A stretch of DNA of 33,203 bases from Acidaminococcus intestini DSM 21505. GTDB taxonomy: Bacteria > Bacillota > Negativicutes > Acidaminococcales > Acidaminococcaceae. The notes below the pieces were generated by a model, which worked only from the letters and a program-made list of their open reading frames with translations, ran no database searches and had not been told where the DNA came from. The first letter of the stretch is position 1. Each line of letters begins with the position of its first letter. Location: NCBI RefSeq assembly GCF_000425045.1, contig NZ_AULA01000030.1, positions 1 through 33,203 of the forward strand, given 5' to 3'. A program made the position numbers and the translations under genes. This document shows positions 1,444-32,825 of the stretch, in pieces.

Positions 1444-1460
1444 TCAAGGCAAAGAAAAAT

Positions 1461-1570: not shown

Positions 1571-1650
1571 GAGGCGCGGTCCCAAACCGTCCCTTCTTCA
1601 AAGGGTGGGGACCGAATTCATCCGCCCTTACACATGTTCTTCGGCTTTCC
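1571..1650 (-). repeat. Dispersed structured element, copy R1 (truncated)
   Basis: This shares with the other copies the order: GC-rich stem, conserved AAACCG, closing stem, GAATT, ATCCGCCC and ACATGTT. Here the stem is GGTCCC (1578-1583) with GGGACC (1608-1613), where other copies have GGCGCC/GGCGCC or CCGCC/GGCGG. The partner of ATCCGCCC and everything beyond are missing. It lies in the 370-bp gap between the FMN-binding protein gene and nagA. Confidence 0.65.
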
Positions 1651-1679
1651 GATTTCACTCCCCTCTTATACTTTGGAGC

Positions 1680-1765
1680 AAAAATCGCTCCGATTCTCCA
1701 GCACTACATCTCTCCATTGCATCCATAAAAAAGGAATCAAGCAATGGAGGCATATCGTGGTAGAG
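1680..1765 (-). repeat. Two-copy hairpin repeat S, copy A
   Basis: CTCCATTGC (1712-1720) pairs with GCAATGGAG (1741-1749). In minus-strand orientation it is followed by AGAATCGGAGCGATTT. The second copy at 21920-22020 has the same layout with stem CCCCCATTGC/GCAATGGGGG, so one base pair changed on both sides. A short GGCGC-GGTTT-GGCGCC segment of R-element type adjoins it at 1770-1787. Confidence 0.6.
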
Positions 1766-1813
1766 ACTCGGCGCGGTTTGGCGCCTAGTCAAAAAGTTGG
1801 AAACCTAGCGGTC

Positions 1814-2956: not shown

Positions 2957-3004
2957 AGCAATACTCCTTTGCAATCTGCCCAATGGCTTATTGATTTCCT
3001 CTTA

Positions 3005-3010
3005 ATTATA
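3005..3010 (-). promoter_or_regulatory. Candidate -10 box of nagA
   Basis: A perfect TATAAT lies on the minus strand in the nagA-murQ spacer. At 17 bp the -35 position reads TAAGTT, a poor match, so an activator may be needed. No convincing murQ promoter was found in this 76-bp spacer. Confidence 0.35.
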
Positions 3011-3032
3011 CCCCTGAAAGAGGTTGGAACTT

Positions 3033-3869: not shown

Positions 3870-5268
3870 AAAAGAGATTGCCCAAAAGATCTACGCCATC
3901 GTGGGCCCCAAGGACAACATTGAAACAGTGACGCACTGCATGACGCGTCTGCGCCTGCACCTCGTAAAGGACGCGGACCTTGCTGAGCTAAAGGCCATTC
4001 CTGGCGTCCTCGGCGTCAACCAAAACGGTGACGAGCTGCAGATTGTCCTAGGTCCGGGAAAGGTGATCCGCGTGGCTGATGCCTTTGCGGCCCTTCTTGA
4101 CGGAAATGAAGCACCCACGCCGAATGACTCCAAGGAGATGCCCAAAGAGCCAGCCGGCCTTTTTGGCGTCCAAGGGGAGGTGGGGGACGGCAAAGCCCTC
4201 CATGAAGCCATTCGGCAAAAAAACGCCACGCCGGCAAAAGCCTTTCTGCGCAAAGTGGCGTCCATCTTCATGCCCCTTATTCCGGGCTTTGTGGGCTGCG
4301 GTTTTTTGACGGGCCTTTTGGGCATCGTGAAATTCTACGACCCCGCTCTTCTTGCCCTGGCGCCCCTGCGCATTCTGCTTCTAGCGGGAAGCGCCATCTT
4401 CCAGTCCATGAATATCCTCGTCGGTTGGAACGCGGCCAAGGTCTTTGGCGGTTCGCCCGTTATTGGCGGCATCTTGGGAGCCCTCATTTCCCATCCCGGC
4501 CTTGCCGACCTCACCCTTTACGGCATGCCCTTGACGCCAGGCCGGGGCGGCGTCTTTGCCGTCCTCCTCGTTACCCTCCTTGCGGCCTACGGGGAAAAGC
4601 AACTGAGGAAAATCGTGCCGCCTGCCTTTGACCTTTTTGTGACGCCTACCCTTGTCATCCTTGTTATGTCTCTTTTGGCGCTCTACGTTCTGCAGCCAGT
4701 GGGCGGCTTTTTAGCAGAAACCATTGGCCGGGGCGCCACGGAAGCGGTGGAGCGGGGCGGCGCCGTGACGGGCTTTCTTTTGGGCGGCTTCTTTCTGCCC
4801 CTTGTCATGATGGGCGTCCATCAGGGCCTCACACCCATCCACGCCGAGCTCATCAGCCAATTTGGCTATACGATCCTTCTTCCCATCCTTGCCATGGCGG
4901 GCGCCGGGCAGGTGGGGGCTGCTCTTGCAGTCTATGTGAAAACAAGGAACCCACGTCTTAAAAAGATTGTGGCGTCGTCCCTTTTTGTCGGCGTCATGGG
5001 CGTCGGCGAGCCTCTTATTTACGGTGTGACCCTTCCTTTGGGCCGGCCCTTTATCGGGGCCTGCATTGGCGGAGCCTTGGGCGGCGCTGTGGAAGCGGCC
5101 TTTCATGTAGGGGCCCTTTCCATGGGTATTTCAGGTCTCCCCCTTCTGCCCAGTACGACCCATCCCTTGATGTACCTCGCAGGCCTTCTTGTCGCTTATG
5201 TAGGCGGGTTTGCTGCCGCGTGGATCCTGGGTTTTGATGACCCGCAGGACGCGAAAGGAGGCGCATGA
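3859..5268 (+). CDS. murP: PTS transporter EIIBC, N-acetylmuramic acid type
   Basis: A 469-residue phosphotransferase permease that imports its sugar while phosphorylating it. The EIIB domain (about residues 1-80) carries the phosphorylated Cys27 in ETVTHCMTRLRLHL. The EIIC membrane domain starts near residue 125 and contains the GxGEPLIYG motif (VGVMGVGEPLIYGVTLPLGRP). Length and domain order match E. coli MurP (474 residues, EIIBC), and its position between murQ and mupG supports MurNAc or MurNAc-GlcNAc as substrate. No EIIA domain or gene is present here, so EIIA must come from elsewhere. Residues 80-120 form a linker that looks variable. A GlcNAc or other glucose-family specificity cannot be excluded from sequence alone. 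Confidence 0.9.
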   Translation: MTREKEIAQKIYAIVGPKDNIETVTHCMTRLRLHLVKDADLAELKAIPGVLGVNQNGDELQIVLGPGKVIRVADAFAALLDGNEAPTPNDSKEMPKEPAGLFGVQGEVGDGKALHEAIRQKNATPAKAFLRKVASIFMPLIPGFVGCGFLTGLLGIVKFYDPALLALAPLRILLLAGSAIFQSMNILVGWNAAKVFGGSPVIGGILGALISHPGLADLTLYGMPLTPGRGGVFAVLLVTLLAAYGEKQLRKIVPPAFDLFVTPTLVILVMSLLALYVLQPVGGFLAETIGRGATEAVERGGAVTGFLLGGFFLPLVMMGVHQGLTPIHAELISQFGYTILLPILAMAGAGQVGAALAVYVKTRNPRLKKIVASSLFVGVMGVGEPLIYGVTLPLGRPFIGACIGGALGGAVEAAFHVGALSMGISGLPLLPSTTHPLMYLAGLLVAYVGGFAAAWILGFDDPQDAKGGA

Positions 5269-6329
5269 TGGAAAAAGGCATTTCCCTTTATCCCGGTCTT
5301 GGCATGACGCGGGAGGAACTCGTTGGACGGGTGGAACAGGCGGCCCAAAAAGGCATGACCCGCCTCTTTTTATCCTTTCATATCCCTGAGACCAATGAGG
5401 CGGCCTTTCAAAAGGATATCGACGCCCTTTTTGAAGCGGCTCGGTGCTATGACCTGAACGTCGTCGGCGACCTTGTGCCAGGTCGTCCCATTCCGGAGGC
5501 CTTGACCCATCTGCGCCTTGATGACGGCTTTACGCCGGAGCGCATAAAAGAGCTGCAGACGCGCTATCCGCAAAAGACCCTCGTCCTTAACGCGTCGACC
5601 GTGACGGAAGGATTTCTTCTTTCCCTTGAGAAAGCCGGTGTTGACGTAGGATGCGTCGAAGCGCTCCATAACTTTTATCCCCGGCCCCATACGGGCCTAT
5701 CAGAAGCCTTTTTCCTGCGGCAAAATGCCCTCTGTCACCATTATGGCATCAAAGTCGGCGCCTTTGTGCGGAGCTTTGGCGCCTGCCGCGGTCCGCTTTT
5801 TAAGGGACTCCCCACGCTTGAAATACATCGGACCCTGGATTTTTTCCTGGCCCTGCAGCATCTGAGGCTCCTTGGAACTGACGCCTTTTATATTGGGGAC
5901 GACGGAGCAACGGAAGACGAACTGGACGCCCTAGCCCAATTGGATGACGTCCTTACCCTTACGCTGTTGACGGAAAAAATCACGGCCCTTCATGAAAAAC
6001 TTGCTGCCTGTATCTTTACGCTGCGGCCCGATGAGGCCGAAGAGGTCCTGCGCGCCCAAAATAGCCGTGCTCTCTTTAAAGAAATGGATATCCCGCCCTT
6101 TACCTTGAAATATCTGCCGCAGGGTACAGTGACCCTCGATAACCGTCTTGCCGGCCGTTATGCTGGTGAAGTTGAGATTACCCTTACGGACCTTCCTGCT
6201 GATCCCAGCGTCAACGTCATGGGACGGGTGAGCGAGGAGGAACGGTTCCTGCTGGGTCTCATGCGGGGTGGGGCACGGTTTAGATTTAGGCTTGTCACAA
6301 AAGCTGCGCCGATTAAAAGTAAAAAGTGA
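5268..6329 (+). CDS. mupG: 6-phospho-N-acetylmuramidase MupG (DUF871)
   Basis: MupG of Staphylococcus aureus hydrolyses MurNAc-6-P-GlcNAc, made by PTS uptake of the wall disaccharide, into MurNAc-6-P and GlcNAc; this is the same family (DUF871). The 353-residue protein has an N-terminal barrel starting GISLYPGL, the family motif ALHNFYPRPHTGLS near residue 137, and a smaller C-terminal beta-rich domain from about residue 240. The stop of murP overlaps its start. Two adjacent ATGs exist (5265 and 5268). I prefer the second because GGAGG then lies 6 bases away rather than 3. Its presence implies import of the disaccharide, not only free MurNAc. Confidence 0.88.
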   Translation: MEKGISLYPGLGMTREELVGRVEQAAQKGMTRLFLSFHIPETNEAAFQKDIDALFEAARCYDLNVVGDLVPGRPIPEALTHLRLDDGFTPERIKELQTRYPQKTLVLNASTVTEGFLLSLEKAGVDVGCVEALHNFYPRPHTGLSEAFFLRQNALCHHYGIKVGAFVRSFGACRGPLFKGLPTLEIHRTLDFFLALQHLRLLGTDAFYIGDDGATEDELDALAQLDDVLTLTLLTEKITALHEKLAACIFTLRPDEAEEVLRAQNSRALFKEMDIPPFTLKYLPQGTVTLDNRLAGRYAGEVEITLTDLPADPSVNVMGRVSEEERFLLGLMRGGARFRFRLVTKAAPIKSKK

Positions 6330-6395
6330 TCCCTTGCCTTGGAAAAGCGTCGGGAAAGTAAGGAATCCAAGGCTTGTTGAATAAAACTGGGAGCG

Positions 6396-6453
6396 AGCGT
6401 ACCTGATTTTGCGTAATCTGGATGGACCAAAATCGGGTACGCTTCTTTTTGTT
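6396..6453 (+). terminator. Terminator of the murQ-murP-mupG operon
   Basis: AGCGTACCTGATTTTG pairs over 16 positions (one G-T) with CAAAATCGGGTACGCT, with a 16-base loop, and is followed by TCTTTTTGTTT. Confidence 0.9.
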
Positions 6454-6572
6454 TCCTAGATCGATTGGATTCTAAAAATAGCTTATTATTCTTCAAATCC
6501 ACTTATTTTACCTTATTTTCCCCTATTTTAAAAATAAACTGTGAACTTCTTGCTCTTTTATTCATCCTTACA

Positions 6573-6601
6573 TTGCAAATCTACCGATTTTGCGCTATGA
6601 T
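6573..6601 (+). promoter_or_regulatory. Promoter of mgtE
   Basis: TTGCAA (6573-6578) and TATGAT (6596-6601) are 17 bp apart. The rest of the 6454-6572 stretch is AT-rich with no other feature I can support. Confidence 0.65.
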
Positions 6602-6610
6602 AAGCCTGTG

Positions 6611-6638
6611 GATGGGACTGTACAGACCCCATCTTTTT
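6611..6638 (+). promoter_or_regulatory. Terminator-like hairpin in the mgtE leader
   Basis: GATGGG (6611-6616) pairs with CCCATC (6628-6633), followed directly by TTTTT. It lies between the promoter and the ribosome binding site of mgtE, within a leader of about 57 bases. It has the form of a weak intrinsic terminator or attenuator. The leader is too short for a full Mg2+-sensing M-box. Confidence 0.4.
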
Positions 6639-6664
6639 CATTATGGCAAAAAGGAGGTCACATC

Positions 6665-8050
6665 ATGAAAAAGAATAAGAACCAGCATCGCGTGCAGGAT
6701 ATCCTGAAGCTCATCCGTACGGAAAGGGATCCCTACTTTTTGGAACGCGCCCTTGACAGTTACCACGATCACGATATAGCCGATGTGCTCCCTCTTTTAA
6801 GTTCGCCCGAATGGAAGCGCCTGGCAAGTCTTTTGCCGGCTCCCTATCTTGCCGATTTGATGGAATATGTCGATGACAAGGAATCCCTTTTTGAGGTTCT
6901 GCCAGCTGAAAGGGCAGCTGCCATCCTCACCCAGATGGAGCCTGACGAAGCCGTCGATTTCCTGAAGGAAACCCAAAGTGCCCAAAAAGAAGCATGGGTG
7001 GCGCATTTGGATGAGGCGACACGGCAAAAACTGACGCGCCTGGCCGCCTATGATGAAGATACGATTGCTTCCCGGATGACAACGAACTTTGTTGCCGTCG
7101 AGGAAGGTCTTGATGTTCCTTCCGTCATGCGCACAGTTGTGCGGGAAGCGGCTGACCATGATGAAATTGCGGTCATCTATGCCCTCAATGACCGTGCTCA
7201 ATTTGCCGGGGCCTTTTCCCTCAAGGATCTCATCATTGCAAGACGGGATACTCCCCTTAACGAAATCATCGTGCGAGGATACCCTTACGTTTATGCCAGC
7301 GAAAAGATCAGCGACTGCCTGCAGCTGATTGAAGAATACAGTGAAGCTTCCATTCCTGTCCTATCGCCGGACCATCGGATCCTTGGCGTTGTAACCGCAA
7401 ATGACGTAGCGCAGCTCCTTGATGATGAAATGGGCGAAGACTATGCTAAACTGGGCGGCCTCTCCGCTGAAGAAGACCTGGACGAACCGCTCAAAACGTC
7501 CATCAAGAAACGGCTGCCCTGGCTTATTCTGCTTCTTGGCTTGGGTCTTGTCGTTTCAAGCGTCGTCAGTCTATACGAAAACGTCGTGGCAAAGTTGACC
7601 CTTATCATGGCCTTTCAGTCCATGATCCTTGATATGTCGGGAAACGTTGGGACCCAGTCGCTTGCCGTAACCATCCGTGTCCTTATGGATGAAGAACTGA
7701 AACCAGGCGATAAATGGCGGCTCATCCGAAAGGAAGGGGGCGCCGGTTTCTTCAATGGACTGATCCTGGGATGCATTGCCGTTTTGGGCATTGGTTTTTA
7801 TATCTATGCGGTAAAATCCTACGATGCCCTTACGGCCTTTGGCATATCGTCCTGCATCGGCCTTTCCCTGGTCCTTGCCATGTTTATTTCGAGTCTTGTA
7901 GGGACCGTGGTCCCGATGGGCTTCAAAAAGATCCATATCGATCCGGCCGTGGCCTCGGGCCCGCTCATTACGACCGTTACGGACCTTGTGGGTGTCGTGA
8001 CCTATTATACCCTGGCGTGGGCGATGCTGGTGCATGGATTGGGGCTGTAA
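6665..8050 (+). CDS. mgtE: Magnesium transporter MgtE
   Basis: A 461-residue dimeric Mg2+ channel of the inner membrane. The order is an N-terminal helical domain (residues 1-130, with MEPDEAVDFL), two CBS domains (about 139-265, including ITANDVA-like VVTANDVAQLLDDE), a connecting helix, and five membrane helices from about residue 283. The pore-region signature GNVGTQSLAV and the closing VASGPLITTVTDLVGVVTYY match the family. The ATG at 6665 follows AAAAAGGAGG. An in-frame upstream ATG at 6590 overlaps the likely promoter and is rejected. It is a monocistronic unit with its own promoter. The CBS and N domains gate the channel by Mg2+ binding in studied homologues. Confidence 0.93.
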   Translation: MKKNKNQHRVQDILKLIRTERDPYFLERALDSYHDHDIADVLPLLSSPEWKRLASLLPAPYLADLMEYVDDKESLFEVLPAERAAAILTQMEPDEAVDFLKETQSAQKEAWVAHLDEATRQKLTRLAAYDEDTIASRMTTNFVAVEEGLDVPSVMRTVVREAADHDEIAVIYALNDRAQFAGAFSLKDLIIARRDTPLNEIIVRGYPYVYASEKISDCLQLIEEYSEASIPVLSPDHRILGVVTANDVAQLLDDEMGEDYAKLGGLSAEEDLDEPLKTSIKKRLPWLILLLGLGLVVSSVVSLYENVVAKLTLIMAFQSMILDMSGNVGTQSLAVTIRVLMDEELKPGDKWRLIRKEGGAGFFNGLILGCIAVLGIGFYIYAVKSYDALTAFGISSCIGLSLVLAMFISSLVGTVVPMGFKKIHIDPAVASGPLITTVTDLVGVVTYYTLAWAMLVHGLGL

Positions 8051-8200
8051 GCGCGTAGGCATCAGCATTTAAAAGGGACAGCTTGTGGAATCGGCGCGCT
8101 CCCTATGAAATCAATGGAGGCTTGGCTTACTGTACAAGCTATCAGCAGCTGGAACGGTAGGTGTGGTGGCAGGCAAACTTGTAAAGAAATGGAATTGAAA

Positions 8201-8227
8201 AGAAAAGGGCCTCGGACCCTTTCTTTC
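8201..8227 (+). terminator. Weak terminator after mgtE
   Basis: AGAAAAGGG and CCCTTTCT pair around CCTCGGA with one bulge, followed by a broken T-run. It lies 150 bp past the mgtE stop. In between, AGCTTGT (8081) and ACAAGCT (8134) form a distant inverted pair, and I see nothing else there. Confidence 0.4.
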
Positions 8228-8252
8228 GACTCCCCGATTCTCTTCGCCCCTG

Positions 8253-8281
8253 CTGAAAAAATCCCCTTGCTGTGATATAAT
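8253..8281 (+). promoter_or_regulatory. Promoter of ychF
   Basis: The extended -10 TGATATAAT (8273-8281) is strong. CTGAAA, 17 bp upstream, is a fair -35. Confidence 0.6.
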
Positions 8282-8317
8282 GATATGTCAACTTAACTAG
8301 ACAAGGAGAGATCATCC

Positions 8318-9427
8318 ATGAGTTCAACCAACCTCGAAATGGGTATTGTCGGCCTGCCGAATGTAGGCAAGAGCACCCTCTTCAACGCCATTACGAAAGC
8401 TGGGGCGGAAGCGGCCAACTATCCATTCTGCACCATAGAGCCCAACGTCGGTATCGTCGATGTCCCAGATCCACGGCTCCAGGTCCTGAGCGACCTATAC
8501 CATTCCAAACGCATTGTTCCGGCGGGCATGAAGTTTGTCGATATTGCAGGCCTTGTGAAGGGCGCCTCCAAAGGTGAAGGCTTGGGCAACAAATTCCTCA
8601 GCCATATCCGCCAGACCGACGCCATTGCCGAAGTGGTGCGCTGCTTTGAAGACGGCAACATCACCCACGTCGAAGGCTCCATTGACCCTATCCGCGATAT
8701 TGAAATCATCAATACGGAACTGTGCCTGGCTGACCTCGAATCGGTGGAAAAGCAGCAGCTCAAGGTCCAGAAGCTCTTAAAGAGCGGTGACAAGACGGCG
8801 CCTGCGAAAAATGCCCTTCTGACCCGTCTCGTCGAGGCCCTCGGCGATGCCAAGCCGGCCCGTCAGGTGGAAATGACAAAGGATGAAAAGGAGATGATCC
8901 GTGAACTCGATCTCCTCACCTTGAAACCAATTCTGTACGTAGCTAACGTTTCCGAAGAAGAGGCCGCCGACGCGTCCGGAAACCCCCATGTGAAGGCGCT
9001 AACGGAATATGCCGAAAAAGAAGGGGCCCAGGTCATCACCATTTCTGCCAAGGTCGAAGAGGACATTGCTTCCCTGCCGGCAGACGAAGCCAAGGAGTAC
9101 CTTGAAATGGAAGGCCTCACCGAAGCGGGTCTTGATCGCCTCATCAAAGCTGGGTTCTCCCTCCTAGGTCTCCAGACCTTCCTCACGGCAGGGGAAATGG
9201 AATCTCGTGCCTGGACCATCGTCAAAGGATTTACGGCACCTCAGGCAGCTGGCAAGATCCATTCGGACTTTGAAAAAGGCTTCATCCGTGCTGAAATTGT
9301 TTCCTACGATGACCTCGTTGCCTGTGGCAGCAAACAGGCTGCCCGTGAAAAGGGCCTTGTGAGACTGGAAGGCAAGGACTACATCATGCAGGACGGCGAC
9401 GTCGTCGAATTCCGCTTCAACGTGTAA
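8318..9427 (+). CDS. ychF: Redox-regulated ATPase YchF (OLA1-type)
   Basis: A 369-residue P-loop protein of the Obg-related YchF family, which prefers ATP over GTP and associates with ribosomes. GLPNVGKST (residues 12-20) is the Walker A motif, DIAGLVKGASKGEGLGNKFL is the switch/G3 region, and ILYVANVSEEE holds the altered G4 (NxxE in place of NKxD) that explains ATP use. A C-terminal TGS domain ends in DGDVVEFRFNV. The start follows ACAAGGAGAGATCATCC. It is followed after 16 bp by the PHP protein gene, so the two are probably co-transcribed. Confidence 0.95.
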   Translation: MSSTNLEMGIVGLPNVGKSTLFNAITKAGAEAANYPFCTIEPNVGIVDVPDPRLQVLSDLYHSKRIVPAGMKFVDIAGLVKGASKGEGLGNKFLSHIRQTDAIAEVVRCFEDGNITHVEGSIDPIRDIEIINTELCLADLESVEKQQLKVQKLLKSGDKTAPAKNALLTRLVEALGDAKPARQVEMTKDEKEMIRELDLLTLKPILYVANVSEEEAADASGNPHVKALTEYAEKEGAQVITISAKVEEDIASLPADEAKEYLEMEGLTEAGLDRLIKAGFSLLGLQTFLTAGEMESRAWTIVKGFTAPQAAGKIHSDFEKGFIRAEIVSYDDLVACGSKQAAREKGLVRLEGKDYIMQDGDVVEFRFNV

Positions 9428-22224: not shown

Positions 22225-23478
22225 TTAGAACGTGACCACGAGCTGAGACCAAAGGGTCCGCGCGTGTTTTTCCGTTTCTTTGCCTTCAAGGTCATAGTAT
22301 TCAACCTGAGCCACCATATTCTTGGCAAGGGTCAGGTTGCCGCCAACGAGGTAGCCTTTGTAGCCTTCGCCGGCAAATTTCTTCCAGGCGCCGTTCATGG
22401 TCGGATTGATTTGGGTTGGTGCACCAAGGTTATAGTATTTGGCAAAGAGGCCCCAAGAACCTGCTTTGGAGGATTTTGCTCCATTCCAGCCCATGTTGAT
22501 GATATAGCCATCGTCATCCGCATTGGGGTACTTAGTTTTTTTGAGGGAATCGTCATCCCCTTTGAGATACATGGCGCCAACCTTGAACTTTCCAACTTTG
22601 TAGTTGGCACGGGTGTTCCAAATGGTGTTGTCGCCGTTTACCATGACCTGCTGATTATTATTTTTAATGAACTCAGCAGCAAGGTCCCAATTACCCCATG
22701 TTTCACCCAATTCTGTTTCAACAAACGTGTCAGCGACAGCTTTGGAAGACCCTTGTTTGACAGCTCCAGACCAACCGTAGGCCCCAATATTTGCCATCTT
22801 TCCATATTCAGCCTTAAGGTAAGCATCGCCAAAAGGAACAGAAGCACGAACACTGTCAACACGCATAGAATAGATATCAGAATCCCCATAATCTGCATGC
22901 TGGCGACCTGCAGAGATGTTTACAACTCCAATATTGCCTTTGAGGAATGCTCTCTGAAAATCGGTATCACTGTCTCCAGATTCATTCTTCCCTTCAAAAA
23001 ACTGATTGTTTTCTAACATGGCAACATAGTGCCAATTATCATTGACTTCACCTGTAAAGAAGAGCCTGGAACGAAGTTGTGACTTGCTGTCGCCGCCAAA
23101 TCCTCCGGTTGTATTAGCGTAACTCATTCGGATATTACCCGTAATTTTAACATTATCGGCGTTTTTTTCAAGCTTTGCTACGCATACTCCAAGGTTGTCA
23201 AGTTCATCAGCAAATTCACCGACCAATTTATCATCAGCACCGATAGTACCTTTAGCAAGGGCCTTTGCAATAATTTGGGCCATTTCATAACGAGTCATGG
23301 TACGGATCCCTTTATAATTTCCATCGGGATAACCATCTACGATTCCTGCTGCAGCAAGTTTAGCAACAGCCGCATAAGCCCAGTGGCCGGCTGGCACATC
23401 AGAAAAAGGATTGTCTGCAAAGGCAGTTTCGCTTACCCCTAGGGCTACAGCCATTGCAATAAAGAGTTTCTTGTTCAT
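22225..23478 (-). CDS. SLH-domain outer-membrane porin (OmpM-like)
   Basis: A 417-residue outer-membrane channel of the type typical for Negativicutes. A signal peptide (MNKKLFIAMAVALGVSETAFA) is followed by one SLH domain (about 22-80: NPFSDVPAGHWAYAAVAKLAAAGIVDGYPDGNYKG), which in these bacteria ties the porin to peptidoglycan polyamines. A short helical linker follows, and then a beta-barrel rich in alternating aromatic residues ending in Phe (LWSQLVVTF), the usual outer-membrane assembly signal. GGGGAGG precedes the ATG. It lies 76 bp after the transporter gene on the same strand with only a weak hairpin (AGAAC/GTTCT) between. It may therefore be read with that operon and admit the same substrate; this is inference. 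No terminator is visible after it. Confidence 0.9.
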   Translation of the reverse strand: MNKKLFIAMAVALGVSETAFADNPFSDVPAGHWAYAAVAKLAAAGIVDGYPDGNYKGIRTMTRYEMAQIIAKALAKGTIGADDKLVGEFADELDNLGVCVAKLEKNADNVKITGNIRMSYANTTGGFGGDSKSQLRSRLFFTGEVNDNWHYVAMLENNQFFEGKNESGDSDTDFQRAFLKGNIGVVNISAGRQHADYGDSDIYSMRVDSVRASVPFGDAYLKAEYGKMANIGAYGWSGAVKQGSSKAVADTFVETELGETWGNWDLAAEFIKNNNQQVMVNGDNTIWNTRANYKVGKFKVGAMYLKGDDDSLKKTKYPNADDDGYIINMGWNGAKSSKAGSWGLFAKYYNLGAPTQINPTMNGAWKKFAGEGYKGYLVGGNLTLAKNMVAQVEYYDLEGKETEKHARTLWSQLVVTF

Positions 23479-23554
23479 GAGTATTTCCTCCCCAGGAACA
23501 TAGTTATTGAGAACCTATCAAATGTGTTCTAACAATCGAGTGGATTAGATTATT

Positions 23555-24805
23555 TCAACAGCTTGTTTGCCAGAGCAAAATGGTAATTGCTGTTGCAAAT
23601 ATGTAGCATACGGTCATACTGACTTGAAGAAGACGAGGTGCTCTCATGCCAGCGTTAATATCTTTTCGCCACATAAGAAGGGTTACAAAAAAACCCGCTG
23701 TTGGTGTACCAATGGAAGTGGCAAGATTTGCTAGGAAAATCAGCTGTGTCGGAGAACCACTGTAAGCAAAGCAAACGATGACACCAAAGAGAATACAAGC
23801 AACACAGGTCCAACGGACACGTTTTGACTCAAGACCGACGGACCAATCCATCCCAGCATTGAGAAGTACGACGCCGCGCTGTGTATTACCAAGAAGGCTT
23901 GAAAAAGCAGCCCCCAGGAGGGCAAGCCCCATAACTGGATTGGCAAAAGTGCCAAGGACCGGTTTCAACATGGCCGCCATCTGGGCCGGTGCCTTGATTT
24001 TGAGGCCTGCCGGGTGAAGGACGATAGCACCAACCGTAACGATGGCTCCAGAAATGAGAATAACTGTAATGACATGGGCAATGCCGTCAGCAAACATGGT
24101 GCCGTTAAAGAGGTCTTCTTTCTTCCATTTCTTTTCTGCTCCCAAATAGGTTCCGTAAACGCCGGCAGTGATGGCGGCGTGAGTACTGATGAAAGCGAGT
24201 GAGTGAAGTAGACTGCCTTGAGGAAATTGCCAATGTGTGATCCCCGTAAAGAAGGGCCCTGCGGCTGGGCCACCAGAAGCAATGAGGGTTGCATAAAAGG
24301 CAATGATCATGCCCATAATGCAGAGAAGAACCCCTTTTTCTACCTTGGAATATGTATTTTTTGAAAAATACATAAGAAGGAGGATGGCAATCATAATGAG
24401 GGCGCCTACTTTCCAGTTAATGCCGAAAATGAGATTCATTCCGGCTCCACTCCCTGAAATATTACCAAAAGTGAAAAAAAGACAGGAAAAGAAAAGGCAG
24501 ATCCCGACAAAAGCAGCGGCACCTTTTCCATAATAATGACGAATTGCATGTATGATGGGCATGCCTGTCAACATGCAGATACGGTAGCAGGAAAGCATAA
24601 AGGTAATGCCCATGATGAAAATGGGGATGAAGAGCCAAAGCATTTGGTAGCCATAGTTGGCACCTAGCATAGACGCTGTTGTAATGGCTCCCGGACCAAT
24701 GACAACACCGGTTAAGATGATACCTGGGCCAATTCGTTTGAGAAGTTCACCGAAAGAGAGTGTGGGAACCGTATCAGGATCGAATCCAAGTTTATCAATA
24801 TACAT
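23555..24805 (-). CDS. NRAMP-superfamily transporter without the DPGN metal motif
   Basis: A 416-residue inner-membrane protein with about 11 hydrophobic segments and the NRAMP/LeuT-like start FGELLKRIGPGIILTGVVIGPGAITTASMLGANYGY. In metal-transporting NRAMPs the first helix carries DPGN and the sixth carries MPH. Here the corresponding segments read GPGA (VIGPGAITT) and STHAAITAGVYG, so the usual metal-binding Asp, Asn and Met are absent. The substrate may then be something else, perhaps the organic compound handled by the upstream lyase. The ATG at 24805 follows AAAAGGACGGATTATT; an upstream in-frame ATG lies beyond the terminator hairpin. Position between a DapA-family lyase and a porin suggests a small uptake operon. 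Confidence 0.75.
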   Translation of the reverse strand: MYIDKLGFDPDTVPTLSFGELLKRIGPGIILTGVVIGPGAITTASMLGANYGYQMLWLFIPIFIMGITFMLSCYRICMLTGMPIIHAIRHYYGKGAAAFVGICLFFSCLFFTFGNISGSGAGMNLIFGINWKVGALIMIAILLLMYFSKNTYSKVEKGVLLCIMGMIIAFYATLIASGGPAAGPFFTGITHWQFPQGSLLHSLAFISTHAAITAGVYGTYLGAEKKWKKEDLFNGTMFADGIAHVITVILISGAIVTVGAIVLHPAGLKIKAPAQMAAMLKPVLGTFANPVMGLALLGAAFSSLLGNTQRGVVLLNAGMDWSVGLESKRVRWTCVACILFGVIVCFAYSGSPTQLIFLANLATSIGTPTAGFFVTLLMWRKDINAGMRAPRLLQVSMTVCYIFATAITILLWQTSC

Positions 24806-24830
24806 AATAATCCGTCCTTTTCGAATATGA

Positions 24831-24864
24831 AAAACGGTGCACAGCATTTCTCACTGTGCACCGT
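24831..24864 (-). terminator. Terminator or attenuator between lyase and transporter genes
   Basis: On the minus strand, ACGGTGCACAG pairs over 11 bp with CTGTGCACCGT (9-base loop), followed by TTTCAT. It lies between two genes that otherwise look like one operon. It may cut the amount of transporter transcript relative to the lyase. Confidence 0.75.
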
Positions 24865-24889
24865 AAAACTTCGCTGGCATCAGCGGCGA

Positions 24890-25861
24890 TTATTTTTCGT
24901 ACGGAGTCATATCAACTTTGGGAAGACCGCTCTTCTTGAGGCCCATAGCAATCCAGTCTTTTTCTTCCTGATCAAGCGGCAGAACCGGTTTTCTCATGAG
25001 GCCGGATTTGAAAACGCCTCTTTGAACCAGCGCTTCCTTCAAACGGGCATGAGCTTCACCGGAAGGCTGGCCGCCGCCATAGATAGCTTGGGAAATCGGG
25101 TAGATGCGATCAGACCATTCCTGAGCTTCCTTGAGAGTGTGTTTTTCAGAATGGGAGAAGACTTCCCAAGCACCGGTAATAAGTTCAGGTACGCAGCCGG
25201 CAAAACCTATTAAAGCACCATCCATACCCGTGAACCAAGTGACGCAAAGCGTTTCATCGTGGCAGGTGATGAGGGATACATCCGGGCATTCCTTGCGGAG
25301 TTCGCGAACATCATGTTCATAGATGGCCGTTACACGAGTACCCATTTTAATGGCCTTAACATGGGGGATTTCTTTAACCATTTTGATCAAGGTTTCTACC
25401 GGATAGAAAGCCTTGCTTGTAGCAGGATAGAGGTGGATGATGATGTCGATATCAGCACCTTCAGCAACATCTTTGACATATTCGAACGGAGCATCCTTGT
25501 GCATGCCGAAGCGAAGCCACATATGAGGCGGCATAAGAAGGATGCCATCAGCACCGGCTTCCTTAGCTTCCTTAGCCATTTCGATGCTTTCAGCCGTGTT
25601 TTCACAGTTCACACCGGAGATGATCGTCATGATATCGCCACATTCTTCGGAGCAGATTTCAACGACGCGTTTCCTTTCAGCACGGGTAAGACCTGTAATT
25701 TCGCCCGTATGACCGTTACAGACAAGGCCTTTAATTCCCTTGTTATAGAACGTCTTAATCCAGCGCAGATAAGCGCGGAATTCTGGTTCATTGATCGTAT
25801 AGTCATTGTTCAAAGGAACAGCAACCGCCGGGAAAATTGTTTTGAAATGTTTTTCTTTCAT
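24890..25861 (-). CDS. DapA-family lyase/aldolase (substrate unknown)
   Basis: A 323-residue class I aldolase of the dihydrodipicolinate synthase/N-acetylneuraminate lyase family (TIM barrel, Schiff-base lysine). Visible are the N-terminal FPAVAVPLN, the substrate loop CNGHTGEITGLT (family GxTGE), the catalytic Tyr in HLYPATSKAF and the Schiff-base Lys in VKAIKMGTR. These differ enough from true DapA (usual IKEATG and YNVPxRT) that a catabolic role on a sugar acid or hydroxy-amino-acid product is more likely; the exact substrate cannot be read. The ATG at 25861 follows TTAAGGAGG. A LacI-type operator lies between its promoter and start. Confidence 0.82.
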   Translation of the reverse strand: MKEKHFKTIFPAVAVPLNNDYTINEPEFRAYLRWIKTFYNKGIKGLVCNGHTGEITGLTRAERKRVVEICSEECGDIMTIISGVNCENTAESIEMAKEAKEAGADGILLMPPHMWLRFGMHKDAPFEYVKDVAEGADIDIIIHLYPATSKAFYPVETLIKMVKEIPHVKAIKMGTRVTAIYEHDVRELRKECPDVSLITCHDETLCVTWFTGMDGALIGFAGCVPELITGAWEVFSHSEKHTLKEAQEWSDRIYPISQAIYGGGQPSGEAHARLKEALVQRGVFKSGLMRKPVLPLDQEEKDWIAMGLKKSGLPKVDMTPYEK

Positions 25862-25897: not shown

Positions 25898-25911
25898 TGC
25901 AATCGTTTGTA
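25898..25911. promoter_or_regulatory. LacI-type operator upstream of the lyase gene
   Basis: TGCAATCGTTTGTA is a near-palindrome centred on CG, the form bound by LacI/GalR proteins. It lies 14 bp after the -10 box of the lyase promoter, where binding would block transcription. Confidence 0.65.
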
Positions 25912-26084: not shown

Positions 26085-26098
26085 TGCAAACGTTTTCA
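26085..26098. promoter_or_regulatory. LacI-type operator at the regulator gene start
   Basis: TGCAAACGTTTTCA is a close match to the LacI/GalR palindrome and sits at the expected transcription start of the regulator gene, so autorepression is likely. It resembles the site at 25898-25911. The two are about 187 bp apart, which would allow looping. Confidence 0.7.
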
Positions 26099-26114: not shown

Positions 26115-27110
26115 ATGCCAACTTTAAGGGATGTCGCAAAACTTGCCTGCTGTGATGTGAGCACTGTTTCGCGGGCTCTTAATAACAACCCCTGTGTCCA
26201 TGCCGAAACGAAAAAGCGTATTATGGCTGCAGTAGAAAAGCTCTCATATCGTCCTAATCTTCTAGCCAAAGGACTCCGCCAAGGTAAGCGTCATTCGGTC
26301 GGAATTGTCGTACCTCACCTGCATCTATCAGTATTTTCCATGATTGCTCAATCCATTGAAGCAACACTTCGGGAAGCAGGGTATTCCGCGTTTTTGTGCA
26401 GTGTTGAAGATAATCCCATTGCCGAAAGAGATAGTCTCAATCGTCTGCGCAATGGCCTTGTAGATGGCATTATTATTGCTGGAACAGGAAAAAATAAAAA
26501 TCTTATCCGTGATATCCATAGTTCACGACTAGCCATTACACAAGTTATCCGTGTCCAGGACAATACACTTAATAGCGTCACTGTTGATTATTATAAATGT
26601 GGATATGAGGCAGTCCATTTCCTCTATAAGAAAGGTTGTCGTCATATTGGGCTTATTACGGGGTCGCTCAAGCTTTCTCCATATAAATTTCGCTTCCAAG
26701 GATATCGAGATGCTATGATGGAGCTTGGAATGCGTGAATTTACGGCGGAAGCGAAGCGATATTCAAATCAACTGGACTACGGATACACATCTACAAAGGA
26801 AATGCTCAAAATCCATCCAGAACTAGACGCCATTATTGCTGCTATGGATGCACAGGGGATTGGAGCACTTCGTGCGCTCAAAGAGGCAAGGAAAAAAGTG
26901 CCGGGAGATGTACGTGTCATTAGTCTTACAGGTCATGAGTTAGGGAGCATGCTTGAAACAACAATGACTACGATGGAAATGCCTGCAGTGGAAATTGGAA
27001 AAAAGGCGGCCCAGCTTGTGCTTGCAGAAATTGAGGCAAACAGTGGCGGAGACGCCCCGGTTGAACGGGTTGTTTATACATCGAAGCTTATCGAACGAGA
27101 AAGTACATAA
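26115..27110 (+). CDS. LacI/GalR-family transcriptional regulator
   Basis: A 331-residue repressor. The DNA-binding head PTLRDVAKLACCDVSTVSRALNN (residues 2-24) and hinge YRPNLLAKGLRQGK are typical. A periplasmic-binding-protein-like ligand domain follows, with SVGIVVPHLHLSVFS near 61, VDGIIIAGTG near 118 and the C-terminal lobe containing VRVISLTGHELGSML. It is divergent from the lyase-transporter-porin genes, and operator-like sites lie at both promoters, so it probably represses them until an inducer appears. The inducer is unknown. The two cysteines in the helix-turn-helix (ACCD) are unusual. The start follows AAAAGAGGTGGCTTT. Confidence 0.93.
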   Translation: MPTLRDVAKLACCDVSTVSRALNNNPCVHAETKKRIMAAVEKLSYRPNLLAKGLRQGKRHSVGIVVPHLHLSVFSMIAQSIEATLREAGYSAFLCSVEDNPIAERDSLNRLRNGLVDGIIIAGTGKNKNLIRDIHSSRLAITQVIRVQDNTLNSVTVDYYKCGYEAVHFLYKKGCRHIGLITGSLKLSPYKFRFQGYRDAMMELGMREFTAEAKRYSNQLDYGYTSTKEMLKIHPELDAIIAAMDAQGIGALRALKEARKKVPGDVRVISLTGHELGSMLETTMTTMEMPAVEIGKKAAQLVLAEIEANSGGDAPVERVVYTSKLIEREST

Positions 27111-27228: not shown

Positions 27229-27575
27229 GGGAAGACCCCTATTGTTAAGATCGTGTTGACGACACGAATATCAAAACAAAGGAAGGTCTCCCATGGAAAA
27301 GAAGGCTGCTTAGCCATGGCTAGGGCCCTTGCGGGCCTGCAAAATGAAGAGCTGGAAGCCGGCTATTCAGCAAGTTCAAGCCTGTAGAAGCTCCGAAGAG
27401 CGCGGAGCTGCGAAAAGCCTTGAGGAACGCGCTGCAAAAAGCTTCTATGGTTCCACATGTGGGAATTAGAAACGGAGGAATTGGTGCGTATACGGCCAGC
27501 AGTACAGCCATAGGTCACTTAAGCTCCATTTTTCGCATTTAATTAGGCTGCAACATAATCTTATAGGGGTCTCCC
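27229..27575. mobile_element. Possible IS-derived fragment with imperfect terminal inverted repeats
   Basis: GGGAAGACCCCTATTGTTAAGAT at 27229, of which the first 13 bases and the AAGAT tail match, is mirrored by ATCTTATAGGGGTCTCCC at 27558-27575. The roughly 350 bp between hold no intact gene, only short interrupted frames. Inside are CGTGT/ACACG and AGCTCC/GGAGCT hairpins. It abuts the truncated transposase start to its right, so it may be a MITE-like element or the scar of a nested insertion. The family is not recognised. Confidence 0.4.
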
Positions 27576-28992: not shown

Positions 28993-30177
28993 GTGAAGAA
29001 TACAAGATTATATGATCTGTGCAAAAGATCCTTGCCAGATTATATTAATGTATGGAAGCAACTGGTCAATGTGGACTGCGGCTCTCGGAATGGAAAGGGA
29101 ATCAACGCGGTTGCCGATGTGTTGATTCGAGAGTTTGAGAAAATAAGCCCTTATTCCATTGAAAAGATTCCCATGGAAAATCCGGAAGAAGGGTGTCATC
29201 TTCTCGTTGTTTTTAGGGGAAAAGGCAAGGGAAAGATTATGGCAGCTGCCCATCTTGATACGGTCTTTCCCGAAGGAACAGCTGCCGAAAGGCCGTTTAA
29301 CATTGAGGGAGACTGGGCAAAGGGCCCTGGTGTGGCAGATTGCAAGAGCGGGGCCAATATGATGCTTTTTGCCATGAAGCATCTCCATGAACTGGGATTC
29401 GATGATTATGATCAAATTACGCTTCTTTTTAATGGGGATGAAGAGATCTCATCACCAAGCAGCCGAAAATTAACGGCAGAACTTGCTCCACAGCATGACT
29501 GCTATTTGTGCTGTGAATCGGGGCAGGAAGGGGATGGCCTTGTCCGGTCGCGGAAGGGCTCCAACTTACTCCAGCTGCGTGTTACGGGTGTTCCTTCTCA
29601 TTCCGGAAATGCGCCGAAAAAAGGCGCCAGTGCACTGATGGAAATCCTGCATCAGATCGAAGCCATCAAAAAGTTAGAAGATGTCAGTAGGGGAACAACC
29701 CTTAATTTTACGCTTCTAAAGGCAGGAGAGCGGGACAATATCATTCCTTCCCATGCGGAAGCAACAGCGGACCTGCGGGTTGTCGATAAAAGTGAAATTG
29801 ACCGGGTAGAAAAGGCGGCTCAAGCAATTGCAGCTCGTCCATTGATTCCACAAACAACAGTAGAGGTTCATGTAAAAAGAGGAAATCCTCCCTTTGCTCC
29901 CAATACCGGCACGGACCAACTCATTGCACTTGCCCAGAAAATCTATGGAGAATTGGGGAAGACGCTGATTACAAGGTCTGTAGGCGGAGCATCGGATGCA
30001 AACTGGGCGGCCGATGCGGGGGCTGTTGCTGTGGACTGCTTTGGCGCTGTCAAAGGTGGCAAGAACCATACGCCGCAGGAATGCGCTTCTGTCAGCAGTG
30101 TTGTTCCACGTATGTATCTTTTAAGCCGAATGTTTATGGAACTGGGTAAAGGAACTGCAGTGAAAGGAGTTTCATGA
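28993..30177 (+). CDS. M20 metallopeptidase, glutamate carboxypeptidase (CPG2)-like
   Basis: A 394-residue zinc exopeptidase. It follows the pattern of Pseudomonas carboxypeptidase G2, which frees glutamate from folates and related N-acyl glutamates. Ligands and catalytic residues are visible: H87 and D89 (AHLDTVFPEG), D116 (GPGVADCKSG), E150/E151 (GDEEISSPSSR), E175 (CCESGQ) and H359 (NHTPQE). The dimerisation lid lies at about 190-300 (VTGVPSHSGNAP). No signal peptide is seen, so it acts in the cytoplasm. The start is GTG, after GGGGGAG. It overlaps the transporter gene. Exact substrate specificity is open. Confidence 0.87.
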   Translation: MKNTRLYDLCKRSLPDYINVWKQLVNVDCGSRNGKGINAVADVLIREFEKISPYSIEKIPMENPEEGCHLLVVFRGKGKGKIMAAAHLDTVFPEGTAAERPFNIEGDWAKGPGVADCKSGANMMLFAMKHLHELGFDDYDQITLLFNGDEEISSPSSRKLTAELAPQHDCYLCCESGQEGDGLVRSRKGSNLLQLRVTGVPSHSGNAPKKGASALMEILHQIEAIKKLEDVSRGTTLNFTLLKAGERDNIIPSHAEATADLRVVDKSEIDRVEKAAQAIAARPLIPQTTVEVHVKRGNPPFAPNTGTDQLIALAQKIYGELGKTLITRSVGGASDANWAADAGAVAVDCFGAVKGGKNHTPQECASVSSVVPRMYLLSRMFMELGKGTAVKGVS

Positions 30178-31601
30178 TGGATGCTAAGGAAACAGGCCGG
30201 GTTCAGCCGGTCAAAGTGATGAATTTCCCTCATACCTTTGTTATTATTCTTGCGATGATTGTTGTAGCATTGATTTTGACGTGGGTTGTACCGGCCGGTA
30301 TGTATGATTTTATCAAGACACCGTCCGGGCAAAAGGTCGTTGATCCTGCAACGTTCCGATATATCAAAAGTACGGGCATCAATCCTGTCCTTATTCCGCT
30401 TTATATCATCAAGTCCTTTAGCAAGCGAATTGACCTCATGATGGTTATTTTCATGGCTGGGTCGGCTTTCCATGTTGTGACGAAGACCGGCGCTTTGCAG
30501 GCCATTCTTGCCAAAGGGGCTAAGCGTTTTTCCAATCGTTTGGAAGTCTTCATCCCCGTCTTGACGCTGATCTTTGGCCTTATCTGCACGACGCAGGGCG
30601 TCAATACGTTCATCCCCTTTGCACCTGTTATGGTCATGCTCGCTATGGCGATGGGCCTTGACTCCATCACAGGCGAAGCCATTATGGTCCTTGGCGGTGC
30701 TATTGGATTTTCCACGGGGACGTTCAACATGTTTACGACCGTGGTGGCGCAAAACATTGCCGAGCTGCCGACTTATTCCGGTCTCTGGTATCGTGCTGTC
30801 TGCTTTGTCGTCTTTTATATCGTGACCAATATTTATTTGATCCGGTATGCCAAGAAAATCAAAAAGAATCCGGAAAAGAGCCCGATGTACGATTTGGACC
30901 AGCTGACGAAAGATAATGCGGCGACGCTTGACCTTGATAAAACGGGCGAACTTTCCGGAAAGATGATGATTCCCCTTGTTCTCCTTGTCATTGCCTTTGC
31001 GGCTATCATTTATGGGGCAATCGTCCTCAAGTGGGGTATGTCCCACATGGCGGCTATTTTCCTTACTTATACAGTTGTGGCAGATCTGATTATTGGAACG
31101 AAAGCAAACGATGTCTGCAAGGATATTTTGAACGGAAGCAAGCAAATGCTCGGAGCAACCTTTATTATTGGGATGGCAACAGCTATCAGTGGTATTATGA
31201 ATGACGGGAAAATTACTTACACGATCGTGCATGCGATGGCAGAAGCCCTTAGCGGATTGCCAGCTATTATCATAGCACCGGGCATGGTGATTGCTAATAC
31301 AATCATCAATGTTTTCTTGACTTCAGGGAGCGGGCAGGCGGTTGCTGTTATGCCTATTCTTATTCCACTAGCTGATGTGCTGGGCGTTACCCGCCAGACC
31401 ACCGTCCTTGCCTTTAATTTTGGTGATGGATTCTGTAATTATATCCTGCCGACATCGACCGCCCTTATGGGAACTCTGAGCGTGACCAATATTCCTTATG
31501 ACCGGTGGATGCGCTTCATGTGGAAACTTTTCCTGATTTGGCTCGTGACGGGCTGCGTCATGACGTTCATTGCCCAAATGATTCATCTGGGGCCCATGTG
31601 A
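30174..31601 (+). CDS. YfcC/DcuC-family transporter
   Basis: A 475-residue inner-membrane protein with about 12 hydrophobic segments. It opens with NFPHTFVIILAMIVVALILTWVVPAGMYDF, a start shared by the YfcC branch of the DcuC-like carriers (ArcD-type basic amino-acid and peptide transporters also resemble it). Other marks are MVIFMAGSAFHVVTKTGA, TTQGVNTFIPFAPVMVMLA and LTSGSGQAVAVMPILIPLAD. Flanking peptidase genes suggest a dipeptide or N-acyl amino-acid substrate. Adjacent ATGs at 30174 and 30177 overlap the previous stop; AAAGGAG lies 4 or 7 bases upstream, favouring the second. Confidence 0.85.
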   Translation: MMDAKETGRVQPVKVMNFPHTFVIILAMIVVALILTWVVPAGMYDFIKTPSGQKVVDPATFRYIKSTGINPVLIPLYIIKSFSKRIDLMMVIFMAGSAFHVVTKTGALQAILAKGAKRFSNRLEVFIPVLTLIFGLICTTQGVNTFIPFAPVMVMLAMAMGLDSITGEAIMVLGGAIGFSTGTFNMFTTVVAQNIAELPTYSGLWYRAVCFVVFYIVTNIYLIRYAKKIKKNPEKSPMYDLDQLTKDNAATLDLDKTGELSGKMMIPLVLLVIAFAAIIYGAIVLKWGMSHMAAIFLTYTVVADLIIGTKANDVCKDILNGSKQMLGATFIIGMATAISGIMNDGKITYTIVHAMAEALSGLPAIIIAPGMVIANTIINVFLTSGSGQAVAVMPILIPLADVLGVTRQTTVLAFNFGDGFCNYILPTSTALMGTLSVTNIPYDRWMRFMWKLFLIWLVTGCVMTFIAQMIHLGPM

Positions 31602-31622
31602 TAATAAAGGAGATGCAAAAGC

Positions 31623-32825
31623 ATGTTGGAAAAACAGATTGAAACAGCCAATCAGTGGATTGACGCGCACCTTTCGGAACTGACGAAGATGTCTGACACC
31701 ATCTTTGATCATCCGGAAATCGGTCCGCATGAATATAAGTCGAGCGCCCTTCTTACCCAGTATCTTGAGGACCATGGTTTTGCTGTGACACGTGGGATTG
31801 GCTCCTTGGAAACGGCCTTTAGGGCCATTTGGAAAAATGGGGAAGGCGGGCCTAATATCGGCCTTCTGTGTGAGTTTGACGCCCTGCCCGGCATGGGACA
31901 TGGCTGCGGCCATCAGCTTCAGGGACCCTCTATTTTGGGCGCAGCAAACGCTATCAAGGAAGCCGCCGGAGATAGCCCCTTTACCTTGACCGTATATGGC
32001 ACGCCGGGCGAGGAAAATATCAGTGGCAAATATATCATGATCAAGGAAGGATGCACCTTTGAGGAACTAGATGTGGCCCTGATGATGCACGGTGGCCCGG
32101 CAACGCAGACAGACATCAAGAGTCTTGCAAATGCTGAATATACAGTTACTTATCACGGTAAGGCCGCTCATGCCGCCCTCAAACCGGAAGCCGGGCGAAG
32201 CAGCCTTGATGCCATGATGCTTGCTTTTCACGGAATTGAATGCCTGAGGGAACATGTACCTGATGATGTGCGGATTCATTACAATATCATTGATGGAGGC
32301 GGTACTGCCGCAAATGTCGTGCCAAGCTTTACGCAGGCTCAGGTCATGGTTCGGGCCGGAACAGTTGGTCTTGTCAAGGAAATCATGAACCGCATGGAAA
32401 AAATCTATAACGGAGCAGCTCTGATGACAGAAACAACTGTCAATGCCGAGGTGGGGAAAATTCTTGATAACAAGATTCCGAATCTTACGCTCAATGATCT
32501 CCTCATGAAACATGCCAGGGCGCTGAACGCACCTAATTGTCAGTCTGCACGGAAACGGACAGGCTCTACGGACTTTGCTAATGTCATGCACCGTGTTCCG
32601 GGCTCCTGTATCCGGGTCGCCTTTGTCCCTGATGGAACCTCTTCCCATTCGCCGGAATTCATTGCGGCCGGTAAATCTGAAGAAGCCCATCAGGCCGTGC
32701 AGTTTGGCGCCAAGATCCTTGCTGACGCTGCTCTCGAACTGATTGATGATCCAAAACAGCTAGAAGCTATCCAAAAAGAGTTCAAAGAAAGAAAAGAAGC
32801 AGAGGAAAAGAATCCCTCTGCGTAA
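31623..32825 (+). CDS. M20D amidohydrolase (AbgB/PM20D2-like)
   Basis: A 400-residue metal-dependent amidohydrolase of the M20D subfamily. GMGHGCGHQLQG gives C95 and H97 as metal ligands and GTPGEE gives E130/E131. HGKAAHAALKPEAGRSSLDA is the lid-domain motif. AbgB of E. coli helps split p-aminobenzoyl-glutamate, and PM20D2 splits dipeptide-like amides. The C-terminus is a charged, helical Lys/Glu-rich tail (KEFKERKEAEEKNPSA). A GGAG site lies 10 bases before the ATG, 21 bp after the transporter stop. It is the last gene of the operon, before a strong terminator. Confidence 0.87.
   Translation: MLEKQIETANQWIDAHLSELTKMSDTIFDHPEIGPHEYKSSALLTQYLEDHGFAVTRGIGSLETAFRAIWKNGEGGPNIGLLCEFDALPGMGHGCGHQLQGPSILGAANAIKEAAGDSPFTLTVYGTPGEENISGKYIMIKEGCTFEELDVALMMHGGPATQTDIKSLANAEYTVTYHGKAAHAALKPEAGRSSLDAMMLAFHGIECLREHVPDDVRIHYNIIDGGGTAANVVPSFTQAQVMVRAGTVGLVKEIMNRMEKIYNGAALMTETTVNAEVGKILDNKIPNLTLNDLLMKHARALNAPNCQSARKRTGSTDFANVMHRVPGSCIRVAFVPDGTSSHSPEFIAAGKSEEAHQAVQFGAKILADAALELIDDPKQLEAIQKEFKERKEAEEKNPSA

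Follow-up and report, generated by a model that had tools for sequence, protein, structure and literature searches.

We detected, in a contig of Acidaminococcus intestini DSM 21505 (NZ_AULA01000030.1, positions 1 to 33,203, hereafter the window, one contig of a 2.28 Mb genome), a gene module that joins a lyase of the dihydrodipicolinate synthase (DHDPS)/DapA superfamily to a carrier with the NRAMP fold but without its metal ligands, next to a divergently oriented LacI-family regulator. NRAMP proteins are textbook metal importers. We nevertheless predict, with a probability of roughly three in four, that this module serves the dedicated uptake and cleavage of one organic 2-oxo acid, or of a compound handled as one. 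An initial annotation of this DNA had placed an SLH-domain porin, an NRAMP-like carrier and a DapA-family lyase at 22225-25861 with a LacI gene beside them, and open reading frames (ORFs) for all four lie there, each above its Pfam cut-off (Table 1). Its idea of organic-acid uptake by an NRAMP-fold protein in a catabolic setting is supported by the conservation of gene order, by carrier swapping around the lyase and by a conserved LacI-type operator.

The association between lyase and carrier is far beyond chance. A search of genome contigs with the carrier as query yielded 68 loci, and the exclusion of two distant ones (L086 and L087) left 66 named loci. Of these, 63 contain the lyase, and in 62 it is the immediate upstream neighbour of the carrier and has the same orientation; where the upstream sequence extends for 1.3 kb or more, this holds for 54 of 57 loci. 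The identity of the lyase to that of the window amounts to 72-89% in 58 of the 63 loci and to 46-54% in the other five. A LacI protein with 40% identity or more (46-73%) was found in 48/66 loci, and a small VOC-type gene near the module in 12/66, the latter by tblastn with four query examples from the same loci; this VOC label is supported by Pfam in L033 and L076, falls just under the cut-off in L052 and obtains nothing for L044. The module extends over many gut bacteria, and its hosts include Lachnospiraceae, Oscillospiraceae, Streptococcus, Enterococcus, Veillonella and Shouchella, all of the Bacillota, and one metagenome-assembled genome (MAG) of the Spirochaetaceae, and the closest carriers among the named genome matches are those of an uncultured Acidaminococcus MAG (88%) and of Acidaminococcus fermentans (78%). 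Gene labels in the unnamed loci derive from ORF calling that favours long ORFs, together with manual reading, unless Pfam or NCBIfam is cited.

The exchange of the carrier around the same lyase clade points to what the carrier does. In a survey with the lyase as query, covering plasmid records and 398 genomes of the phylum, the lyase was found at an E value of 1e-60 in 6/398 genomes and the carrier family in 1/398, with the A. intestini genome counted in both. In the five lyase-bearing genomes other than that of A. intestini, the lyase has TAXI-TRAP genes in its vicinity four times and an MFS gene once. The same lyase clade stands beside a sodium:solute symporter (PF00474) in Lactiplantibacillus plantarum, beside TAXI-TRAP in Paenisporosarcina and beside an MFS carrier in Priestia, and the lyases of Priestia (MFS) and Shouchella (NRAMP-like) are 92% identical, with LacI and a VOC-type gene in both clusters. 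A lyase tree of 29 rows, in which three of the five genomes are represented, requires no fewer than six changes of carrier type, and the 33-row tree with four distant rows added requires eight. TRAP, MFS and sodium-solute symporter carriers of this sort transport organic solutes as a rule. Because organic-solute carriers replace it in sister operons, the role that the NRAMP-fold carrier shares with them is probably the uptake of the lyase's substrate. We also observed a divergent cluster outside the Bacillota, on a Neorhizobium plasmid (L154:5647-9230), which holds LacI, a distant lyase and a GPGN-type NRAMP-like gene, the carrier belonging to another clade.

The carrier reads VVIGPGAITT in transmembrane helix (TM) 1 and STHAAITAG in TM6. 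In register with canonical NRAMPs, as set by sequence alignment and not by structural superposition, this corresponds to the replacements D to G51, N to A54, M to A225 and H to T227, and the alignment does not restore metal ligands at equivalent positions. The initial annotation had opposed GPGA and THAA to DPGN and MPH; the motifs are as it wrote them and the ligands are replaced, but THAA (residues 222-225) shares just one residue with the MPH position, and H223 is not at the position of the metal histidine, relatives having H, N or S there. For the family as a whole, 79 NRAMP homologues were collected and aligned, 10 near-copies were dropped, and the remaining 69 were used for the tree and the counts. 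The position of the TM1 aspartate holds Gly in 17/17 carrier-family rows, compared with Asp in 22/22 canonical and 10/10 NDAxG-type (NRMT-like) rows, and that of the TM3 glutamate holds Asn in 17/17, compared with Glu in 22/22 canonical rows. The TM1 asparagine position is occupied by A (10 rows), N (4), S (2) or V (1), the TM6 methionine position by S (9) or A (8), the TM6 proline position by V, L or I in all 17, and the TM6 histidine position by T (15) or N (2). D, N, M, H and E are all invariant in the 22 canonical rows.

The carrier family forms one branch of the tree with support 100, apart from the canonical and the NRMT-type members. A branch with a Shimodaira-Hasegawa-like approximate likelihood ratio (SH-aLRT) value of 96 unites the PxpT-type rows, the GPGT-type rows, the carrier family and four single rows, with the canonical and NDAxG rows opposite, in a tree that was built with a quick method, contains several long branches and includes PxpT-like rows but not EleNRMT, PxpT and YcsG themselves. 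Judged by its residues and its place in the tree, the carrier belongs to the G-motif NRAMP-related group, a name taken from PMC12873925, as it has Gly in place of the TM1 aspartate and falls outside the canonical and NRMT groups; that 'G-motif' refers to the TM1 glycine is our reading of a figure legend of that preprint. The AlphaFold model of the carrier, made from an alignment of 31 sequences (30 chosen from a cluster of 63 ORFs, plus that of the window), has a mean predicted local distance difference test (pLDDT) score of 85. Its best match is DraNramp (6c3i; Z 45.0, root-mean-square deviation 2.4, 377 residues aligned), an integrative model of YcsG comes at rank 6 (Z 43.0), and AdiC, an amino-acid carrier of the APC superfamily, matches more weakly (Z 31.0). 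The fold is thus common to the carrier and to canonical NRAMP/SLC11 proteins such as MntH and DraNramp, from which the carrier differs by the replaced metal ligands and TM3 glutamate and by its catabolic context, and it scores far below the NCBIfam models for MntH (NF001923, 71.5 vs 430) and nramp (TIGR01197, 46.3 vs 272.5). Among solved structures, its best sequence match is the NRMT magnesium transporter EleNRMT (phmmer E 2.8e-15); both have an altered site, but NRMT-type rows keep the TM1 aspartate and form a different clade.

The nearest studied parallels are PxpT and YcsG. The NRAMP-family protein PxpT of Corynebacterium glutamicum is needed for growth on 5-oxoproline, according to an excerpt of PMC13274462, and together with YcsG it resembles the carrier in its NRAMP-family fold, its catabolic operon and its proposed organic substrate, and PxpT also in having a dedicated repressor (PxpR). 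PxpT-like rows also have GPG in TM1 and GN in TM3. On the other hand, they read GPGF in TM1 and VGGY in TM6, where the carrier family reads GPG(A/N/S/V) and T-x-A-(A/S), their genes adjoin pxp genes and not a lyase, and the two families are separate clades with support 100 each. A January 2026 preprint describes the Nramp-related groups, in the part available, as entirely uncharacterised except for the NRMT-like group and 'G-motif 3' (YcsG/MntG) (PMC12873925), and for YcsG/MntG the excerpts of PMC13274462 and PMC10448178 show the assignment to Mn or to 5-oxoproline to be contested. The A. intestini genome itself encodes a second NRAMP-like gene, of GPGF type, on contig C15 (L002:619-3429), between pxpA and a PxpB-like gene with a CT_C_D domain. 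This gene and the carrier are the only two PF01566 matches in the genome, and no canonical DPGN NRAMP was found; a by-eye check revealed no pxp gene among the ORFs of the window, and phmmer with the host's PxpT-like protein matched no solved structure. GPGT-type NRAMP-like genes were seen in other Acidaminococcus genomes at positions of about 3.2-7.7 kb in L109-L112, where an IclR regulator, a hydantoinase/carbamoylase-type amidase and a gene of the arginase family lie nearby (families called on L109 and L112), perhaps another organic-nitrogen uptake module, and further such genes lie beside a D-glutamate cyclase family gene (PF07286) at L108:5084-7317 and L114:4261-6824.

The lyase shares with DapA, NanA and YagE of E. 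coli the TIM-barrel family, the Schiff-base lysine and the GxxGE loop, and with NanA an aligned D-E pair, and its AlphaFold model (pLDDT 87.9) has N-acetylneuraminate lyase (NAL) and DHDPS as top Foldseek matches. K172 is present in 23/23 aligned rows. Class I lyases of the DHDPS superfamily require no metal. The lyase is only 20-22% identical to the three E. coli enzymes and differs from them in several features: the slot of the catalytic tyrosine, which we take to be Y133 in DapA and Y137 in NanA, is filled by His in 23/23 rows of the lyase alignment and in 30/33 clade rows, the exceptions being the distant Klebsiella, Cupriavidus and Neorhizobium rows with Phe; a Tyr follows two residues after the His143 slot; and the protein contains the insert PPHxWLRFG and the sequence TCHDE. 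R117 and R176 are found in 33/33 clade rows and K150 in 32/33 (R in L062), all three being absent from DapA, NanA and YagE, and these conserved residues suggest a basic pocket for a polyanionic 2-oxo acid. Known specificities were considered and set aside: the lyase scores 92.4 bits against the DapA equivalog cut-off of 206 and 85-90 bits against the N-acetylneuraminate lyase cut-offs of 281 and 382, in both cases with His in the Tyr slot, it is below the cut-off of all seven NCBIfam models that it matches, and as DHDPS, NAL and KDG-aldolase entries match at similar strength, none is callable by homology. A GudL-type 5-KDG substrate is a possible candidate, drawn from the description of GudL 5-KDG aldolase in an excerpt of PMC11775122 (an M110 and K194 signature, with gudD/garD/garR genes).

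A possible hint at the lyase's product comes from two of the 66 loci (L033 and L028), in which oxaloacetate decarboxylase (Oad) genes lie downstream of the module on the same strand. OadA passes the equivalog NF008985 (cut-off 718) in both, with 735.6 in L033 and 729.5 in L028, and OadB of L033 passes TIGR01109. Because these genes adjoin the module, oxaloacetate is hinted at as a product of the lyase, and a substrate of the 4-carboxy-4-hydroxy-2-oxoadipate type, giving pyruvate and oxaloacetate, is our guess from these two loci; one literature search for this substrate idea returned no match.

The module also appears to have its own regulation. The LacI-type operator TRCAAWCGWTTGYA occurs upstream of 28 of 49 lyase ORFs as an exact match and of 37/49 with at most one mismatch, counted over 48 loci with the window's own included, compared with 0 and 1 for the reversed pattern. 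Among matches to a looser pattern in the A. intestini genome, only the sites at 25898 (exact) and 26085 (one mismatch) have 0-1 mismatch, the other four having two or three, and as these two belong to the module, no further regulon gene was found in this genome. A regulon search in nine Acidaminococcus genomes likewise found no further pathway gene; by eye, the sites with 0-1 mismatch to TRCAAWCGWTTGYA lie at module copies or contig ends, apart from two. In G006 an exact operator lies about 350 bp before a porin gene (60% identity) and about 140 bp from the contig end, and may serve another gene, and G002 has one operator site though it is a genome without a close copy of the carrier. Scanned once against Rfam with the gathering cut-offs, the window yielded a single tRNA and no metal riboswitch or M-box, MntR/Fur boxes not being part of the scan. 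Another DHDPS-family gene (298 bits) in the genome is probably the host DapA, and a search of metal uptake systems that covered PF01566 and PF01297 gave a ZnuA-type gene, so that lysine synthesis and metal uptake do not obviously depend on this locus.

The porin is likely a local addition and not part of the module core. The initial annotation had proposed a dedicated outer-membrane pore, for which the porin beside the module in the window and the porin matches beside it in three Veillonella loci (L046, L047 and L049, with 30, 32 and 28% identity by tblastn) can be cited, but the scan of ten further Acidaminococcus loci (L004, L005, L006, L007, L013, L014, L015, L020, L021 and L115), some of which have short flanks, gave no SLH signature. 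The SLH-signature scan found the porin in the window, L046, L047 and L107, and missed that of L049. The A. intestini genome has four further porins with 53-73% identity to that of the window, which itself stays below the NCBIfam por_somb cut-off (33 vs 100).

Based on these features, we propose a theoretical scheme for the module. The compound would cross the outer membrane, in this host possibly via the downstream SLH porin, and would be imported by the NRAMP-fold carrier acting as a secondary transporter, in which the conserved small polar residues T56, N129, T222 and T227, alongside an H or N at position 223, may form the lining of the pocket in place of metal ligands. In the cytoplasm, the lyase would form a Schiff base through Lys172, as is the chemistry of the superfamily, and cleave the compound to pyruvate and a second fragment, which may be oxaloacetate-like in view of the Oad genes after the module in two hosts. 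The position of the two operators and the family of the regulator suggest that the LacI repressor would leave both in response to the compound or its product, and the hairpin between lyase and carrier may set the level of the lyase above that of the carrier.

Several observations weigh against this scheme. The 66 loci were retrieved with the carrier as query and thus comprise close carrier relatives only, and four of them (L025, L031, L052 and L074) have no adjacent upstream lyase: in L025 the lyase is on the other side of the carrier, L031 is cut by a contig end, and L052 and L074 have no lyase in the available sequence and TAXI-TRAP genes nearby. The canonical catalytic tyrosine is absent from the lyase, and therefore its reaction may not be aldol cleavage. 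The OadA proteins fall under TIGR01108 (680 and 671.5 vs 756.5). The operator is missing, even at one mismatch, from 12/49 lyase ORFs, and its looser pattern gives 48 sites against 31 for the reversed control in the nine Acidaminococcus genomes, which is only a modest excess. Besides, with 58.2 bits against a cut-off of 50, the carrier is accepted by NF037982, the NCBIfam equivalog named 'Nramp family divalent metal transporter', though it falls far short of the MntH and nramp models, and its relative YcsG (MntG) of B. subtilis is called a Mn importer in an excerpt of PMC10448178, its over-expression having raised cellular Mn and its operon promoter being bound by MntR. In L052, the NRAMP-like carrier shares the stretch 198-9411 with TAXI-TRAP genes, a VOC-type gene and two LacI genes, and the 15 kb of available sequence contains no lyase.

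The strongest of the other explanations, which we still regard as unlikely, is that the carrier exports the product of the lyase, or exchanges substrate for product, in a fermentative host. Fermentative hosts and the exchange of precursor for product are common in organic acid metabolism, and an aromatic-acid-exporter-family gene occurs in the Enterococcus florum cluster, but the families that replace the carrier, TAXI-TRAP and sodium-solute symporters, generally work as importers. It is more improbable still that the carrier remains an importer of divalent metal (Mn or Mg) whose expression together with the lyase has a physiological reason, as claimed for YcsG/MntG. PF01566 membership, the NRAMP fold, the NF037982 score and the YcsG report are in line with such a function, as is the Mg transport by NRMT members with an altered site described in an excerpt of PMC8806188; the invariant Gly and Asn that replace the TM1 aspartate and the TM3 acidic residue, the absence of a metal riboswitch at threshold in the window and the organic-solute carriers that take its place in sister operons argue against it. 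That the carrier transports 5-oxoproline or a similar amino acid like PxpT, next to an unrelated lyase, is very improbable, for although PxpT and YcsG are the studied relatives of this kind and both families share TM3 G128 and N129, the host has a separate PxpT-like gene in a pxp setting, the two families are distinct clades, and the adjacency to the lyase is kept across the loci.

Table 1. Features of the lyase-carrier locus in the window (positions from its first nucleotide).
Feature	Position	Strand	Basis
Outer-membrane porin with N-terminal SLH domain	22225-23478	-	ORF; SLH PF00395 44 bits (cut-off 20.8)
NRAMP-fold carrier without metal ligands	23555-24805 (longest ORF starts 24847)	-	ORF; PF01566 158 bits (cut-off 29.8)
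Carrier TM6 motif T222-H-A-A-I-T227 (canonical A-x-V-M-P-H)	24167-24184	-	alignment
Carrier TM1 motif GPGA (canonical DPGN)	24686-24697	-	alignment
Intrinsic-terminator-like hairpin between lyase and carrier, 13 pairs, T tail	24834-24864	-	
DHDPS/DapA-superfamily lyase, 323 aa	24890-25861	-	ORF; PF00701 116 bits (cut-off 22.1)
Codon of Lys172, Schiff-base lysine (DapA K161 slot)	25346-25348	-	alignment
Codon of His143, slot of catalytic Tyr	25433-25435	-	alignment
LacI-type operator TGCAATCGTTTGTA, exact match to TRCAAWCGWTTGYA, before lyase	25898-25911	.	predicted, pattern match
LacI-type operator TGCAAACGTTTTCA, one mismatch to TRCAAWCGWTTGYA, before lacI	26085-26098	.	predicted, pattern match
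LacI-family regulator, divergent from lyase	26115-27110	+	PF00356 and PF13377 above cut-off; LacI 59 bits (cut-off 27)

The hairpin between lyase and carrier has an RNA folding energy of -30.1 kcal/mol (z -3.16), in a region for which 12 terminator-like sites are listed against 5.7 expected. Because of its location, the carrier probably starts at M15 of the longer ORF. In the 76 bp gap between the carrier and the downstream porin, the hairpin scan listed no terminator-like site. Elsewhere in the window, an M20 carboxypeptidase, a YfcC-like carrier and an M20 amidohydrolase lie behind a LysR-like gene (28993-32825, plus strand) and form another cluster, distinct from the module, for peptides or N-acyl amino acids, and the stretch 27240-27540 resembles, by eye, the remnant of an insertion element.

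Among the matches listed in the Creative Commons-licensed PubMed Central (PMC) literature, no paper deals with a lyase-NRAMP module, and the carrier clade, its lyase partner and its regulator are not described in any of them and would be new, the NRAMP fold and the idea of a non-metal NRAMP being known. We tentatively extend the predicted uptake and cleavage to a bolder proposal, to which we give somewhat less than an even chance: the glycine-motif half of PF01566 would be a broad family of organic-nutrient carriers, and the present clade its 2-oxo-acid branch, importing a polycarboxylate or sugar acid that a histidine-type DHDPS lyase of new specificity would cleave to pyruvate and an oxaloacetate-like fragment. 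The operon links an uncharacterised NRAMP relative to an enzyme amenable to purification and screening, so that the cargo of the carrier becomes a direct biochemical question, and it points to an uncharacterised, strongly conserved lyase. Overall, these results could correct the annotation of the carrier in many Bacillota genomes, and if the bolder proposal is true, metal transport would be one specialisation of the NRAMP fold and not its defining trade.

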